Shown here: in pieces, positions 2,706 to 31,385 of the stretch
Numbering within the stretch: the first letter of the stretch is position 1
Layout of the letters: each line of letters begins with the position of its first letter
Assembly: GCF_013373365.1 (NCBI RefSeq)
Contig: NZ_CP035925.1
Span: forward strand, 2,852,001-2,916,000
Source: Lentibacillus sp. CBA3610
GTDB lineage: Bacteria > Bacillota > Bacilli > Bacillales > Amphibacillaceae
Length of the DNA: 64,000 nt
Direction: 5' to 3'
Translations under genes and position numbers: made by a program
Notes under the pieces: model-generated
What the model saw: only the letters and a program-made list of their open reading frames with translations
What the model was told of the DNA's origin: nothing
Databases searched by the model: none

Positions 2706-2801
2706 AAGTTTAATTTTTGTTGCTGCCGGGAAGCTGCCGGCTGAAGTAAGATGAACCTGAGCTGGGGCGCAGCGATTTTCCATTGGTTGTTGTACGGTGC
2801 T

Positions 2802-2933
2802 CGCGCGAATTGTAGACGTTCTCGCATGGTGTGCCGCTGTTCTCGCACGATTTGAGATCGCTCTCGCTCGGTTTGACGCTGTCCTCGCACGATTTGAAGA
2901 CGATCTCGAGCGATTAGATGCTGATTTCGCACG
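2802..2933. repeat. Degenerate tandem repeat with exact 21-bp period, copy 1
   Basis: The motif CGCACG or a one- or two-base variant recurs at 2802, 2823, 2844, 2865, 2886, 2907 and 2928, always 21 bp apart. Most units read close to TCTCGCACGATTTGANGCNG. It lies between the recQ terminator and the 3' end of the convergent aminopeptidase gene. Related arrays are at 30248-30379 and 55689-55736. Confidence 0.75.
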
Positions 2934-2963: not shown

Positions 2964-4205
2964 TTACCCTTTTACGTTCAATGCCCATGTTCCATTACGA
3001 AATACGGCTTCTGTTGTACCGTCATCCAAAACGCCGTCAATGTCCAGCTTATTCGATCCAATCATAAAGTCAACGTGGTTTAAGCTGTCATTAACACCAT
3101 GCGAATCAAGTGCTTCATCGTCCATTTCCGCTCCACCTTCAAGATTGGTTGGATAGGCTTTACCCAAAGCGATGTGACAGGATGCATTTTCATCATAAAG
3201 TGTATTGTAAAAGATCAGCCCTGACTGGGACACCGGTGATTCGTCCGGAACAAGCGCGACTTCTCCCAGACGGCGTGAGCCTTCATCTGTTTCCAGCAGA
3301 TGTTTTAATGTTTCTTCACCCTGCTCAGCCTGATAATCAACCACCTTACCGTCTTTGAATGTCAGACTGAAATTGTCAATCAGACTGCCGCCATAGTTGA
3401 GTGGCTTCGTGCTGGAGACCGTCCCATTGACACCATATTTGTGCGGCAAGGAGAAGACTTCCTCTGTCGGCATATTCGGATTAAATGTCGTGCCCTGTTC
3501 AGAAACTGCTGAACCACCTTTCCAGATATGACCGTCCGGAAGCTCAATTGCCAAATCAGTCCCTGGCGCTTTGAATACAAGCTTGGTATATTTTTTCCGA
3601 TTTAAAATTTCACGGGCCGTTTCTAATGTTTTATTGTGCTCATCCCATGCGGCAATCGGGTCGTCCTGATCAACACGGACGATTGTCGCAATGGCATCCC
3701 ATAGACTTTCCACAGCATCCTCACGTGATTTTTCGGGGAAAATTTTCTGTGCCCAGTCACCGGTCGGAATGGTGATGATTGACCAGGTAATACGATCGTT
3801 CATTGTATATTGACGAAAATTTTTCATCGCCTGTGCCGACGCTTTATTGGCCATGGCCACTCGGGATGAATCGATATCTTTTAGCAAATCCGGATTCGTT
3901 GACCGGATGGACAGCACTGCCGCACCGTCTTCCGCATATGTATCAAGCAGCTTGACCTTCCATTCCGGAAACGTTCCAATCACCTCATCCGGTGCATTTT
4001 CATACTTCAATAACGTCAATTCATCATCTTCCCAGTTGATATGTACATCCTTCGCTCCCATTTCATACGCCTTTTTGGCAACAGTTCGGGTGAAATCTGC
4101 TCCCTCAATCGGCGCATTGATCATGAGCGCTTGATTTTTTTGTAAATTAACACCGGTCCGCAGTGCGAGCTCAGCATATTTTTCCTTCATTTTTTGATCT
4201 GCCAT
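2964..4205 (-). CDS. ampS: Aminopeptidase, M29 family
   Basis: Metal-dependent exopeptidase releasing N-terminal amino acids, cytoplasmic, 413 residues, the usual length for AmpS/aminopeptidase T proteins. The C-terminal metal-binding half shows the family blocks GEVALVPDESPVS, CHIALGKAYP and HVDFMIGS, which carry the conserved Glu, His and Asp ligands. No signal peptide. ATG at 4205 follows GGAGGTAACTGT. It is transcribed alone, convergent with recQ, with a 21-bp repeat array between the two genes. Confidence 0.93.
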   Translation of the reverse strand: MADQKMKEKYAELALRTGVNLQKNQALMINAPIEGADFTRTVAKKAYEMGAKDVHINWEDDELTLLKYENAPDEVIGTFPEWKVKLLDTYAEDGAAVLSIRSTNPDLLKDIDSSRVAMANKASAQAMKNFRQYTMNDRITWSIITIPTGDWAQKIFPEKSREDAVESLWDAIATIVRVDQDDPIAAWDEHNKTLETAREILNRKKYTKLVFKAPGTDLAIELPDGHIWKGGSAVSEQGTTFNPNMPTEEVFSLPHKYGVNGTVSSTKPLNYGGSLIDNFSLTFKDGKVVDYQAEQGEETLKHLLETDEGSRRLGEVALVPDESPVSQSGLIFYNTLYDENASCHIALGKAYPTNLEGGAEMDDEALDSHGVNDSLNHVDFMIGSNKLDIDGVLDDGTTEAVFRNGTWALNVKG

Positions 4206-11051: not shown

Positions 11052-11170
11052 CTCTTATCAAGAGCGGTGGAGGGATTAGGCCCTGTGAAGCCCGGCAACC
11101 ATTAAGGCAAGAAAATTTGCCTTGAAAGGTGCTAAATCCTACAGATCAGGCGGGATCTGGAAGATAAGAG
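11052..11170 (+). ncRNA. SAM-I (S-box) riboswitch
   Basis: Classic S-box leader: P1 arms CTCTTATC (11052-11059) and GATAAGAG (11163-11170), the conserved AGAGCGGTGGAGGGA block, GAAGCCCGGCAACC, and AAGGTGCTAAATCCTACAG. S-adenosylmethionine binding stabilises P1. The 3' arm of P1 and following bases (11164-11174) can instead pair with 11193-11203, the 5' arm of the terminator, giving an 11-bp antiterminator with one G-U pair. Transcription of metY is thus expected to proceed only when SAM is low. Confidence 0.96.
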
Positions 11171-18942: not shown

Positions 18943-21453
18943 GTTAGCAATAGGTAAGCCTTTGAAATTATCTCCAGCTTTTCCCCTGCTCCGCACCGAA
19001 CGTGCCAGTTTCCCAGCATTCGGCGGTCCATCTACCGATGTATAATTGATTATAAGTTCTTCGTTACTTTTAGACGTGAGATAGTTCTACCTTTTCCAGC
19101 CCGCATTCCATTCGGTATTGATTTAGTTTCTTTATTATTGAGTTATTCAATCCGAATTTCTGTGTTTCGGATGCAATGATTTCGTTATCTTTACGATGTA
19201 CTAGCCGATGTATGTCCTTATGAGGATACGAAGATTGTTGAACTTATCCGTTCTCCAAAAGATGTTTAGGTGTATAATGATGACAGTGAACTTCGTAGGC
19301 AGTTAAATCCCAACCTGTGATTTCGCATTTCCCCATTTTCATACTGAAACGGCTAATGCGATTATCCATGTATTCAACTGTTCTATCTGGAAGATTTGCC
19401 TTCATTAGTACGCTGATTTCAAATTCAATATTTGGCTGTAATTTATCGTAAATTTCTCCTGGCCTTCTTCTGTAAAAAGAGATAATGATGGACTAAAGTT
19501 CATGGCATTTACTGTTTTGACGTTTCCTATAGGAAACAGGTGTAACAGTGGCAATTTTGAACGTCTTAAATCCTTTACTATAAAACTTCTTATAGGTTGA
19601 AGTAGGATTTGATTGGATGTCCATATTTCCCAACAGTACGAAGGCGATTGTACAGAAAGGCTTTTAGATCATAGGCAAGACGTGAGAATTCTGGATTGAC
19701 ATGTGTCGCTCTGTTAAAATAATTGTGAATACCTAAAACAAAACTGTTAAAGCGTAAAGCATTTTGGACTGTAGGGGAGTCTTTCAACTTTCGGATGTGC
19801 CTTTTGGCTTGTTCTTTAAGTTTCTCCCTTTTCTTACGTTTGATGCCTGTATGGGCAACTCTTTTATCCTTCTTCACATTTGCTTTAATGGTAAACCCTA
19901 AGAATTCGGATTCTCTTTTTCGCAAATTCACAATCTGCGACTTTTCTGGTGAGATATCCAGTTTTAAACGTTCTTTAATATATAATCTAACTGCATGGTA
20001 CCACTTTTGGGCTGTTTTTCCATCTCGACAGAGAATTTTAAAATCGTCCGCATAGCGGACAAGGTAACCTTCTTTAAGGTTTGTACGTTTTTTCGCATTT
20101 CTTTCTCCAGCTTGAGATTTGTAGTTTTCGAGAAAGGGAAAAACTCCCACTGACCTGCAACCCACTGGTCTAAATCGTTTAATACAACGTTCGCTAATAT
20201 CGTCCGATAAATACCGCCCTGGGTTATACCCTAGAAGGCACCCCTTCTTTATCAATTTCAGCTTTGAGCATCTTAGATATACAAGCCAATACTTTTCTAT
20301 CATGGATACCTAAATTCCATAACTGTTTGATGAGAAGTGTATGATTAACATTATCGAAAAAGCTCTTGATATCAACGTCCACAACATAATGAAGCTGCGA
20401 TTGATAATTAGAAATTGTACTCTTTGCCATAGCATTATGAGTAAGACCGTAAACGGTCTGAATCCATAGCTATGTTTATAAAAGTGGGCTTCAGCAATTG
20501 GCTCAAGAACTTGTTTAAAACACTGTTGAATAATACGGTCAAGGATACATGGAATGCCAAGTGGTCTTAATTTACCATTTTCCTTTTCAATCCATTTTCT
20601 TCTAACCTTCTTAGGATGATAGTTTTTTAGTTTTGTTTGGATTATTTTCACTAATTCATTTTCCGTAATCCTTTTGATGTCTTTGATGGTTTTTCCATCT
20701 GTTCCAGATGTTTTCGAAACCTTTATTAGATTTGACATCCGATAGCTAGTAAAATATTCTCTCGTGATGTAATCATTTCATATAAATGGTTAAATGAATC
20801 GTTTGTTACTAGCCCTCTTGTGTAAATCCGTAAAGTTTTTCCGTCATATTGTAGTAATCCAATATCTTAAAGTTGACACTGTGGCATCCCTCCCAAAGAG
20901 TGATGTTCCCACATTCCTACCCGATCGGTGTCATTCACGTGAAGAAAATAATCATTCTAATTCGCTAGACTTGGGGCTGTTCCTCCACTCCCATTACAGA
21001 GATTCATCAGTCGTACCCCTACCTTCGCAAGGATAAATGTATTTCGGCTTTAGCCTTATTACAAACGTTTCGGATGACAGTCCTTCTTTCAACGTTCCTT
21101 ACTTCCCAAGTACCTTACAACGTAGCTATCCATTTTAGACGTAGGTGCTTCCTTTAAGCCTGCGAGCACGATACCGCCATTGTTCGGTATAGCGTATTTC
21201 AGAGGGCGCAGTTTTACTCTACACCACTCGCCCCAACGTTAGCTGGGACATAGCTTTACACTATGTTCAAACTTTAGACCCTTACATTCGGAAGTTTGTC
21301 AGTTCGCTTCTAGTGGAACATTCTCACCGTGTCTACTTTTTCAGCCATCCGGCATATCAGTTAGCATACCCTTTCCAATTGGATTGGATTTAGCCTTCCT
21401 TCTGCCGACTCTACCTGTGCTTCGTACCCCATGAACTGTCATTCATGACGCAC
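18943..21453 (-). mobile_element. Group II intron, degraded
   Basis: On the minus strand the 5' end GTGCG (21453-21449) matches the bacterial group II start. A domain V-like hairpin with GAAA loop (GAATGCTGGGAAACTGGCAC, about 18995-19014) lies near the 3' end, which probably closes in GCTAAC at 18943. Between them is a broken maturase gene. Ends are estimated from consensus, not from an empty site. It lies between the toxin pair and element I of the repeat array. Confidence 0.7.
19070..20860 (-). pseudogene. ltrA: Group II intron reverse transcriptase/maturase with HNH domain, frameshifted
   Basis: RT blocks in order across several frames: SREN-ILLA near 20770, SKTSGTDGKTI (20700), LRPLGIPCILDRIIQQ (20560), KHSYGFRP, VVDVDIKSFFDNVNH (20380), YLVRYADDFKILCRDG with the catalytic YADD (20050), FLGFTIKA, a maturase region to about 19600 and an HNH-like end with TAYEVHCHHYTP (about 19290) and HKDIHRLVHRK. 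Frame changes occur near 20750, 20440, 20300 and 19250-19590. It cannot make an intact protein. Confidence 0.82.
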
Positions 21454-21559
21454 GCAGGAATATTGATGGGGTGGTTTCAGGAAACATGGTTCCGTCATTC
21501 CCATCCTCCGTTGTAACGTTAGAATTAATAGAATTCCCCGCATGTTCACCCTTCAAAGG

Positions 21560-28414: not shown

Positions 28415-28599
28415 AAAATATCCCCCCTGAAGATTAAGATCTCTATTAGCCAATGTAAAGCTCTTTTCATCTGATGACAAGCCTTTTAACTGTTTTCTCT
28501 TATACAAATAAACACTTCCAGCAAAACCCGTATACGTTGACTAAATGCCTTAAATCCCTTAAGCTAACGGTGATTATAATTATTGGAGGACGTTTACGG

Positions 28600-30222
28600 A
28601 TGCTAACGGTTAATAATGTAAGTCTGCGTTATGCTGATAAAAAATTGTTTGAAGATGTGAACCTGAAATTCACGCCAGGTAATTGCTATGGGGTTATTGG
28701 CGCAAATGGTGCCGGCAAATCCACTTTCCTCAGAGTGCTCTCAGGTGAGGTAGATCCGCAATCGGGCAATGTCTCCAAATCCCCGGATGAGCGGATAGCC
28801 GTACTCAAACAAGAACATTTTGCTTATGATGACTATGAGGTACTGGAAACCGTCCTAATGGGACATGAGCGTTTATATGAAGTTAAACGGGAGAAAGATG
28901 CCATTTATATGAAGCCTGATTTTTCCGAGGATGACGGGATGCGCGCTGCTGAACTTGAGGGTGAATTTGCTGAAATGAACGGCTGGGAAGCAGAGTCCGA
29001 TGCAGCCGTTCTATTAAAAGGACTCGGTGTTGATGAATCCCTTCATTCAGCAAAAATGGCGGATTTGCCCGAGGACCAGAAAGTCAAAGTCTTACTTGCA
29101 CAAGCACTCTATGGAAACCCGGATATTTTACTTCTGGACGAACCGACAAACGGTTTGGACATTCACGCCATTCAGTGGCTGGAAGATTTTTTGATCGACT
29201 TTGAAAATACAGTGATCGTTGTTTCGCATGACCGCCACTTCTTAAATAAGGTATGCACACACATTGCAGATGTTGACTACGGAAAAATTGAGATTTACGT
29301 CGGTAACTATGATTTCTGGTATGAGTCCAGCCAGCTGGCGAAGAAAATGGCACAGGAAGAAAATAAGAAAAAGGAAGAAAAAATCAAGGATCTGAAAGCA
29401 TTTATCGAGCGATTCAGTGCCAATGCGTCGAAATCAAGGCAGGCTACATCACGGAAAAAACTTCTGGACAGCATTACGCTTGATGACATTAAACCATCAT
29501 CGCGGAAATATCCATATATTAATTTTACACCAGACCGGGAAATCGGCAATGATCTGCTGTTCGTCGAAGGGCTGACCAAAACCATTAATGGGGAAAAAGT
29601 GCTGGACAATGTCAGCTTTACCGTTAATAAAGATGATAAAATTGCCTTTGTCGGCAAAAACGACATAGCCAAAACAACGCTGTTTGAAATCCTGATGGGT
29701 AATATGGAACCTGATGCCGGAACGTTTAAGTGGGGTGTGACCACTTCACAATCGTATTTCCCAAGGGATAATTCAGCCTACTTTGATGGCAATGATCTGC
29801 CATTGGTCGACTGGCTCCGGCAATATTCCCCGGAAGACGAAACGGAAACCTTTTTACGAGGCTTTCTCGGACGCATGCTGTTCTCCGGTGATCAAGCATT
29901 GAAGAAGGCAAGTGTCCTATCCGGCGGTGAGCGTGTCCGCTGCGTGCTGTCGAAAATGATGCTCTCAGGCGCCAATGTTCTGGTTATGGATGAACCAACG
30001 AACCACCTGGATTTAGAGTCCATCACATCATTGAATAACGGACTTAAAAAATTCAAAGGATCGATTTTGTTCACGTCACACGACCATGAATTTATTCAAA
30101 CGATCGCCAACCGCCTGATTGAAATCACGCCTCAAGGCATTGTTGATAAAGAAATGAGCTATGACGACTATATTGCGGATAAAGAATTGCAAGAGAAAGT
30201 TGAAGCTATGTATGCGAGCTGA
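28600..30222 (+). CDS. ykpA: ABC-F family ATPase (YkpA type)
   Basis: 540-residue soluble protein with two ABC domains, no membrane segment; ABC-F proteins act on the ribosome. Domain 1: Walker A GANGAGKS (34-41) and LLLDEPTNGLD. Its signature is atypical (ADLPEDQKVKVLLAQAL instead of LSGGQ). Interdomain linker with KKMAQEENKKKEEK. Domain 2: LSGGERVR signature and MDEPTNHLD, but its P-loop reads GKNDIAKT, lacking the usual Gly-X-Gly-Lys. Start ATG 28600 follows TTGGAGGACGTTTACGG; the frame is open further upstream. A terminator and 21-bp repeats follow. Confidence 0.9.
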   Translation: MLTVNNVSLRYADKKLFEDVNLKFTPGNCYGVIGANGAGKSTFLRVLSGEVDPQSGNVSKSPDERIAVLKQEHFAYDDYEVLETVLMGHERLYEVKREKDAIYMKPDFSEDDGMRAAELEGEFAEMNGWEAESDAAVLLKGLGVDESLHSAKMADLPEDQKVKVLLAQALYGNPDILLLDEPTNGLDIHAIQWLEDFLIDFENTVIVVSHDRHFLNKVCTHIADVDYGKIEIYVGNYDFWYESSQLAKKMAQEENKKKEEKIKDLKAFIERFSANASKSRQATSRKKLLDSITLDDIKPSSRKYPYINFTPDREIGNDLLFVEGLTKTINGEKVLDNVSFTVNKDDKIAFVGKNDIAKTTLFEILMGNMEPDAGTFKWGVTTSQSYFPRDNSAYFDGNDLPLVDWLRQYSPEDETETFLRGFLGRMLFSGDQALKKASVLSGGERVRCVLSKMMLSGANVLVMDEPTNHLDLESITSLNNGLKKFKGSILFTSHDHEFIQTIANRLIEITPQGIVDKEMSYDDYIADKELQEKVEAMYAS

Positions 30223-30247
30223 CTTGATGACGGTTTGAGGTGTTGCT

Positions 30248-30379
30248 CGCACGATTCGAAGCGGACGCCGCACGTTTTGCGGTGGGTCTCGCACGATTTG
30301 GAGCGGACGCCGCACGTTTTGCGGTGGGTCTCGCACGATTTGGAGCTGACATCGCACGATTTGACGCTAATGTCGCACG
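30248..30379. repeat. Degenerate tandem repeat with exact 21-bp period, copy 2
   Basis: CGCACG occurs at 30248, 30269, 30290, 30311, 30332, 30353 and 30374, every 21 bp without exception. A 42-bp double unit (30259-30300) is repeated exactly at 30301-30342, so the array has expanded recently. It lies between the stop of the ABC-F gene and the shared terminator. Confidence 0.85.
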
Positions 30380-30410
30380 GGATTAATTCTCTCCCGTACT
30401 TCTGAATACT

Positions 30411-30448
30411 AAAAAAACGTTCCCTTAACCTCGGGGGAACGTTTTTTA
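30411..30448. terminator. Bidirectional terminator between ABC-F gene and tdh
   Basis: AAAAAACGTTCCC / GGGAACGTTTTTT perfect stem with A- and T-runs on both sides, between convergent genes. Confidence 0.88.
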
Positions 30449-30452
30449 TATC

Positions 30453-31385
30453 CTACTTAACCTGCAGTTTCGTCAGCATATCCGCTGTCATTTTGTCGAT
30501 ATCATATTCAGCCTTAAAGCCCCATTCTTCTGCTGCCGCGGATGAATCCAGATTATCCGGCCAGCTTTCGGCGATCTGCTGACGGACAGGATCAACATCA
30601 TAAGCCAGCTCAAATTCCGGTATGTGCTTCCGGATTGCCTTGGCAAAATCCTCCGGGGCCGCCGATATAGCTGAAATATTATAGGCATTGCGGTGGACAA
30701 GCTTCCCCGGATCTGCTTCCATCAGCTGAATGATCGCATTCAAAGCATCCGGCATATACATCATATCCATATACGTGTTTTGGGCAATGTATGATGTGTA
30801 TGTTTTATGTTTCATGGCTTCATAATAAATCTCCACAGCATAATCGGTCGTTCCCCCGCCCGGTGGTGTCACATGGGAAATAAGGCCGGGATAACGGACG
30901 CCGCGTGTATCCACGCCATAGCGGTAATAGTAATAATCGCACAGCAACTCACCTGCCACTTTATTAACACCATACATCGTCGTCGGCCGCATAATCGTTT
31001 TCTGTGGTGTATTCTTTTTTGGGGTTGTCGGACCGAATGCGCCAATCGAACTTGGGGTAAAGAACTGCAAATCCAGATCCCTGGCTGCTTCCAGGGCATT
31101 TATCAGACCGCCCATGTTCAAATCCCATGCTATTTTCGGGACAGCCTCTGCCTTGGCTGACAATAATGCGGCCAAGTGCATAATCGTATCCACCTTATGT
31201 TTTTTGGCAGCATCATGTATGGCTTTTTCATCGGTCACATCAACAATTTCAAACGGACCTTCCTCCCCGTCTTTTTTCCAGAGGTCGGAGCCGATGACAT
31301 TGGATGTTCCGTAATATTCCCGTAATTGACTGACAAGTTCCGAGCCGATTTGACCCATTGCACCTGTCACCAGAATTTTTCTCAT
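30453..31385 (-). CDS. tdh: L-threonine 3-dehydrogenase, SDR/epimerase type
   Basis: Oxidises L-threonine to 2-amino-3-oxobutyrate with NAD+. 310 residues of the short-chain NAD-epimerase fold, not the zinc alcohol dehydrogenase type: Rossmann GAMGQIG at 8-14, catalytic Y138 and K142 in [10 protein letters not shown], and the family-typical RYPGLIS and [12 protein letters not shown]. It follows kbl in the same direction after 172 bases, forming the two-step threonine to glycine pathway. Confidence 0.93.

Follow-up and report, generated by a model that had tools for sequence, protein, structure and literature searches.

A polar family of 21-base repeat arrays in halophilic Bacilli

A 64,000-nucleotide stretch of the genome of Lentibacillus sp. 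CBA3610 (positions 2,852,001-2,916,000 of a single 4.04-Mb contig; hereafter the window, its own genome being coded G000) carries, at positions 30247-30393 of the + strand, an array of seven in-phase 21-bp units. This array belongs to a large family of 21-base intergenic repeat arrays in halophilic Bacilli, in which a conserved core recurs at a spacing of two helical turns, its letters form dialects, and its orientation follows the axis from replication origin to terminus (ori-to-ter). From these patterns we propose, tentatively and with reservations, that the arrays may serve as polar, helically phased platforms for a co-evolving DNA-binding protein.

An earlier note on this DNA had described seven CGCACG sites at perfect 21-bp spacing, and their start coordinates bear this out: 30248, 30269, 30290, 30311, 30332, 30353, and 30374, every step being exactly 21 bp. 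The 42-bp duplication described there is present as well, at a shift of 42 (30260-30346, + strand), the identical block being slightly longer than claimed, with 45 bases (30260-30304 recurring at 30302-30346). Tandem Repeats Finder (TRF) reported periods of 21 and 42. The unit is best written one base earlier than the CGCACG start, as the core TCGCACGANTT (dialect CGCACG) followed by a 10-bp spacer, and the final unit is degenerate beyond its core. Nine CGCACG-N15-CGCACG pairs with at most one mismatch were observed in the window, whereas 100 dinucleotide shuffles averaged 0.03, which excludes a chance origin.

Further members, which the earlier note had expected in the genome, were readily found. 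The whole of G000 contains 53 exact CGCACG-N15-CGCACG pairs (51 forward and 2 reverse) versus none for the reversed control, and a longer pattern with up to three mismatches gave 102 matches versus one for its control, at about 23 places by hand count, some of them single pairs. In the fetched stretches of this genome, 18 arrays of at least four units were counted; arrays with fewer than four units (fewer than five in the reading-frame test) or a score below 5 were left out, and array size in the loci examined ranged from 4 to 37 units. Among relatives, a pattern of TCGCNCGANTT occurring twice at 21 bp, with one mismatch allowed, matched in 42 of the 159 genomes of the GTDB family, representing 21 of its 46 genera, with 1 to 486 matches per genome, while the control gave one match each in three genomes. 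An order-wide sample of 397 genomes yielded 14 with matches, six of them within the family; the eight genomes from outside it had one or two matches each, at or below control level. A phage or plasmid mobile element was rejected, as blastn at E 0.01 matched the array to neither phage nor plasmid records. Two viral contigs fit a three-unit pattern, with 3 or 4 TCGCCCGA units within longer open frames, probably by chance.

Conserved core and variable spacer at a two-turn spacing

Among 966 steps to the next strong site within 90 bp, 819 were 21 bp, 62 were 42 bp, 32 were 20 bp, and 10 were 22 bp. To compare positions within the unit, 1131 in-phase slots were arranged as 934 pairs of neighbouring units, omitting identical pairs and pairs with fewer than nine matching positions; 123 slots without a detectable core were kept in the count. 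Agreement between neighbours was 0.76-0.96 at positions 1-11 compared to 0.44-0.60 at positions 12-19, with 0.66 and 0.76 at positions 20 and 21. The core is thus conserved and the spacer variable. The arrays are also richer in G+C (0.593) than the sequence elsewhere (0.415). Outside detected arrays, the core was found at only 9, 3, 3, and 1 sites in the fetched stretches of G000, G011, G001, and G009, at or below the counts of four control words.

Within the two window arrays (the second, described above, and a first at 2801-2933), fold, Rfam, and terminator scans revealed no stable hairpin or known RNA family. The RNA fold z-scores of their four strands were -0.81, -2.30, 2.05, and 0.41, which is no consistent fold, and Rfam at the gathering threshold gave no match in either array. 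Known RNA and promoter readings were rejected.

Core letters form dialects within genomes

Two positions of the core, 5 and 9, tend to distinguish genomes from one another. In 69 arrays from 8 genomes, agreement within a genome was 0.75 and 0.82 at these positions versus 0.34 and 0.44 under shuffled labels (z of 8.4 and 7.2; 1000 label shuffles), and spacer positions reached a z of at most 2.7. This test excluded loci that had been chosen through the CGCACG pattern, which removed a second dialect of G001, and omitted repeated pairs of consensus and size as well as G092, which has fewer than three arrays. Among loci not chosen through CGCACG, positions 5 and 9 were T and G in all 13 arrays of G005, in 6/6 of G009, and in 4/4 of G010, but G and G in 5/5 of G001; in G099, position 5 was A in 11/11 and position 9 was G in nine and C in two. 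Recent copying between arrays has little support as the source of these dialects, because within a genome only 8 of the 415 pairs of arrays have any 21-mer in common; between genomes, none of 3007 pairs does. The dialect pattern suggests a trans-acting reader, or an enzyme, of drifting specificity, which would be expected to leave such a trace.

Orientation follows the ori-to-ter axis

In G000, dnaA lies at 3.214 Mb (+). The sign of the GC skew, measured in samples, switches between 1.0 and 1.2 Mb and again around 3.2-3.4 Mb; a single sample, at 2.6 Mb, departs from this pattern. Chromosome arms were assigned by dnaA in G000, G005, G009, and G011 and from sampled GC skew in G001. On this basis, 56 of the 58 arrays with four or more units lay on the strand opposite leading-strand genes (G000, 18/18; G005, 16/16; G001, 7/7; G009, 6/6; G011, 9/11); arrays within a few hundred bases of a counted one were skipped. 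The same polarity was observed for 62 of 68 arrays in eight further genomes from five genera including that of the window (G002, G006, G007, G010, G012, G073, G092, and G099), where the reference was the GC skew pooled per contig over the stretches fetched. One contig (G007:C29) was omitted for its pooled skew of less than 0.03; its two arrays are both in the direction of the skew. Because neither neighbouring arrays nor those of related species are independent, sign tests overstate the evidence, but the 18/18 of a single genome holds all the same, as does the agreement across genera.

Gene context was derived from simple longest-open-reading-frame calls, after removal of open frames overlapping arrays. 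Writing leading-strand genes as minus, the 56 polar arrays comprise 20 in convergent gaps, 26 in tandem-leading, 6 in divergent, and 3 in tandem-lagging gaps, and one with a side unknown. Polarity was retained by all six divergent and three tandem-lagging arrays of the five genomes (9/9), and by 4/5 divergent and 6/6 tandem-lagging arrays of the eight (10/11). Therefore, gene direction alone cannot set array orientation. Nor is simple strand composition the cause, because the leading-strand GC skew of arrays (-0.072) is opposite in sign to that of the rest (0.082); on the same strand the arrays are A-rich, with an AT skew of 0.38. The axis of polarity is ori-to-ter, along which replication itself, SMC, SpoIIIE/FtsK, or repair may be the relevant process.

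The arrays are concentrated on the arm upstream of dnaA, for the most part at a distance of 0.3-1.0 Mb. Of 122 matches in G005, 100 of which were listed, 114 lay on the strand expected for this arm versus 8 on the other, and the fetched arrays fell on this arm in 16/18 (G000), 16/16 (G005), 9/11 (G011), 6/6 (G009), and 6/7 (G001) cases; since the fetched loci follow match lists (in G009, 50 of 130 listed), this arm bias is safe as a trend only.

Turnover at an orthologous gap and arrays with other cores

The epimerase gene that borders the second array is present in all 12 genomes of the genus, and the gap beside it varies from 0 to 16 units between species, in line with the copy-number variation anticipated in the earlier note. 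TCGCNCG arrays of 7, 3, 3, 7, and 16 units occupy it in G000, G004, G008, G009, and G010, in one orientation in all five genomes having at least three units, and none was detected in G002, G003, G006, G007, and G011. G005 has about two units by eye, and G001 carries an array of 20-bp units with another core, GTTGATAT, in the expected polarity. By eye, the array follows a terminator-like hairpin in G008, G009, and G010. The gene across the gap from the epimerase looks different in G003, and in G002 (L160) an element with ends like GAGGTTGGGACATAA and TTTTGTCCCAGCCTC occupies the gap, again by eye. Duplicated blocks of 42 and 63 bp were seen in arrays.

TRF also reported further arrays in which units of 20 or 21 bp carry different cores. 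Arrays like CCGTYGATRTT and GTGAACTTYRG showed the polarity in 6/6 and 3/3 cases, small numbers from a count that was not blind, as the patterns were written after the TRF output had been seen. A third sister family, GCCCATRTTT (F2), has 20-bp units and occurs in the window's own genome at L079 4981-5297, L065 1324-1551, and L071 1560-1951, the last being contrary to replication polarity. That the sister arrays represent a single family whose cores have changed is a guess.

The arrays compared with known repeat systems

None of the families against which the arrays were tested fits them, although their single features (tandem repeats, oriented words, and dialects) are each already known. Arrays of clustered regularly interspaced short palindromic repeats (CRISPR) have near-identical repeats of about 24-40 bp and unique spacers of similar size. 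The earlier note had set CRISPR aside, and we reject it likewise: the units are 21 bp with an 11-bp core, spacers are duplicated within an array, and no cas gene is found among the immediate neighbours of the two window arrays. Repetitive extragenic palindromic (REP) sequences, their bacterial interspersed mosaic elements (BIMEs), and the associated transposases (RAYT, TnpA-REP) are closer, as these elements too are short, intergenic, present in many copies, and exist in several sequence versions, and they prefer the 3' ends of genes. The arrays described here, however, are direct and not palindromic repeats, spaced at 21 bp, and almost all of them point the same way; the window arrays lack the palindromic hairpin, and the centre of the CGCGCG dialect is palindromic. 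REPs, by comparison, are palindromes of 20-40 bp according to the abstract of PMC3733652, and those in BIMEs are described in PMC6006769 as paired in inverted orientation. Among 25 listed of the 116 families found in 58 flanking proteins there was no RAYT or Y1 transposase, and no genome-wide search for one was made.

FtsK-orienting polar sequences (KOPS), SpoIIIE recognition sequences (SRS), and Chi are asymmetric words, oriented from ori to ter and dispersed singly, within genes included. The arrays share the orientation along this axis but not the dispersed over-representation of a single word, with four of five genomes at control level and G005 as the exception. The B. subtilis SRS octamer was not found in the arrays. 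AGCGG, the Chi sequence of B. subtilis, reaches a leading-strand density in arrays that is 3.6 times its density elsewhere in the five genomes (3.68 versus 1.02 per kb), and its complement CCGCT occurs at 0.58 versus 0.73 per kb. We do not take Chi as the explanation, because AGCGG occurs only about once per 13 units and the arrays are G+C-rich.

Iterons and plasmid centromere repeats are direct repeats about two helical turns apart that are cooperatively bound. The arrays share this two-turn spacing, but they are many, dispersed, and chromosomal, and they match no plasmid record by blastn; nor is there a theme of initiator or partition genes beside them, no Pfam family occurring in more than three of 58 immediate flanking proteins. 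DNA uptake sequences form species dialects of a short conserved core; unlike them, the arrays are tandem at a fixed spacing, non-dispersed, and oriented with replication. Minisatellites, or variable-number tandem repeats, resemble the arrays in tandem repetition and in copy-number variation (here between species, with 0, 3, 7, and 16 units), but conserved core, dialect, and replication polarity are common to arrays that have few units in common. In the open-access literature, to which the search was confined, none of the titles or abstract openings listed describes such arrays. To our knowledge, the known direction marks (KOPS, SRS, and Chi) are dispersed words, and no repeat family among REP, CRISPR, and iterons unites tandem phasing with species dialects and replication polarity.

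A possible platform for a co-evolving protein and its rivals

In the platform that we propose, each 21-bp unit would display a single asymmetric core, TCGCNCGANTT; with all cores facing one side of the helix, an array would form a row of equally oriented recognition sites. A host trans-acting, sequence-specific DNA-binding protein may read the core, and its specificity would drift between species, whereby unlinked arrays of one genome would come to share letters at positions 5 and 9. Orientation would be maintained because the target moves along the ori-to-ter axis, be it the replisome, SMC, SpoIIIE/FtsK, or a repair nuclease. A more specific version, which we regard as rather doubtful, treats the arrays as a direction code: phased asymmetric intergenic sites in species dialects would allow a co-evolving protein to tell ori-ward from ter-ward and to act on one arm in particular, and the cores TCGCNCGANTT, CCGTYGATRTT, GCCCATRTTT, and GTGAACTTYRG would be variants of one 20-21-bp architecture. 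If a protein does read the arrays, they would represent either a previously unknown system sensing the direction of chromosome arms or a novel type of repeat parasite coupled to the replication fork. In both cases the arrays offer natural sites of controlled orientation that are easy to manipulate and for which dialect swaps can serve as controls, so that the question is open to direct tests.

Several observations weigh against the platform. Numbers are very uneven between close relatives (3 matches in G004, 9 in G003, 192 in G010, and 486 in G006), and therefore the function cannot be essential. Eight of 126 arrays run contrary to the polarity; both exceptions in the five genomes are low-scoring TCGCGCGA arrays of G011, and those in the eight genomes are L117 6779, L123 7443, L130 6896, L132 7324, L147 6683, and L244 4832; three of these, L123, L147, and L244, contain 11 or 12 units. 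The GCCCATRTTT family is polar in only 2/4 arrays. Dialects are mixed in G011 and G012 of the test set and in G000 and G007 of the wider set, and G001 and G006 have minority dialects. The core test is partly biased, since arrays were detected through their core, and G005 has an excess of cores outside detected arrays (30 sites, 27 on the expected strand and 3 opposite). One window strand, that with a z of -2.30, folds better than most shuffles (4 of 200 were as good). No reader protein was found: the genes scanned, 58 of the 78 listed as flanking arrays in G000, G005, and G009, showed no common theme, so that a functional theme among flanking genes was rejected as well.

The main rival to the platform is selfish or semi-selfish amplification by a site-specific endonuclease of single-stranded DNA (HUH/Y1) reading the core on the lagging-strand template. 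Such an enzyme would drive gain, expansion, and loss of units and would yield polarity, dialect (through its own specificity), intergenic siting, and patchiness with no host function; REP families, too, are matched to a cognate enzyme. Patchy numbers and turnover agree with this, and PMC5371812 and PMC6006769 offer a precedent for the orientation in IS200/IS605, the latter also describing several REP families that TnpA-REP is proposed to move. We nevertheless consider it unlikely, as the arrays are direct repeats with no consistent fold in the two window arrays, whole units are seldom common to arrays, and the strict two-turn ruler is left unexplained. Neutral minisatellites arising by replication slippage, with a strand-dependent bias of slippage or base substitution, appear improbable. 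The duplicated 42- and 63-bp blocks, the range of 0 to 16 units at one gap, and the A-richness of arrays on the leading strand all point in their direction; against them stand a core conserved beside a variable spacer, a common dialect despite few common units, and an array GC skew of opposite sign to the rest.

Two further rivals concern the neighbouring genes and the reading frame. Arrays might act as stops or insulators of transcription where genes converge, with head-on transcription as one example of what they could guard against; we hold this reading to be distinctly improbable. Convergent gaps are indeed over-represented (20 of 55 arrays versus 101 of 523 background gaps; Fisher p 0.005), and the second window array lies between the stop codon of its left-hand gene and a terminator. 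However, polarity is kept beside divergent and lagging tandem genes, no consistent RNA fold was seen in the two window arrays, and a simple scan in five genomes, covering the 71 gene ends that point toward an array, placed a terminator-like hairpin before the array at 26, after it at 10, inside it at 2, and nowhere at 33, so that 26 of 38 ends with a hairpin already had one ahead of the array. The earlier note had proposed an effect on transcription ends; as orientation follows replication and not genes, this part of its interpretation lacks support as the main function, whereas further members, the distinction from CRISPR, copy-number change, and the convergent excess all stood. Lastly, the idea that the arrays encode a repeated peptide of 7 residues, or arise as a by-product of coding, is barely credible. 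The unit length equals seven codons, and two frames have few stops (36 and 40 in 88 arrays versus 189 expected by shuffling), being wholly open in 63 and 68 arrays; this low stop count is also a point against the platform. But no frame is stop-free over the 88 arrays (36 to 237 stops per frame), the open frames arise at least partly from the letters of the core itself, the frame is broken by 20- and 22-bp steps, and sister families have 20-bp units.

Neighbourhood of the window arrays and other repeats

Both window arrays lie between convergent genes, as the earlier note had it. To the left of the second is a gene (28474-30222, +) on the lagging strand, which we take to encode an ABC-F type ATPase from its double ABC and ABC_tran_Xtn make-up, and to the right a leading-strand gene of the NAD-dependent epimerase family (30453-31385, -), presumably threonine dehydrogenase-like; the 3' ends of both face the array. 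The terminator claimed beside this array corresponds to a hairpin resembling an intrinsic terminator between array and epimerase gene at about 30411-30447, found on both strands by a simple script and on the + strand by a terminator tool; viewed from the ABC-F gene, the array precedes it. The first array of the earlier note was likewise located, at 2801-2933 (+), with seven in-phase units of the same family and strand that are more degenerate; it is flanked by a RecQ-type helicase gene (485-2632, +) on its left and a peptidase M29 gene (2964-4205, -) on its right.

Other repeats were encountered alongside the arrays. Tandem repeats of 52 bp occur at L211 2493, L216 4607, L217 9253, L222 5012, and L089 1607 (three in G001, the others in G005 and G000); some contain the halves ACTCAT and ATGAGT, and the one in G000 looks unrelated. 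In G005, a tandem repeat surrounds the palindrome-like word GTGCCTGGCAC at L200 13400 and at L201 5669 and 12982. G005 and G011 gave many DnaA-domain (PF00308) matches, several with identical scores in twos or threes, perhaps transposition ATPases of repeated insertion sequences. The window further contains parts of a group II intron at 18944-21523 (-; Rfam RF02004 and RF00029) and an S-adenosylmethionine (SAM) riboswitch at 11052-11170 (+; Rfam RF00162).
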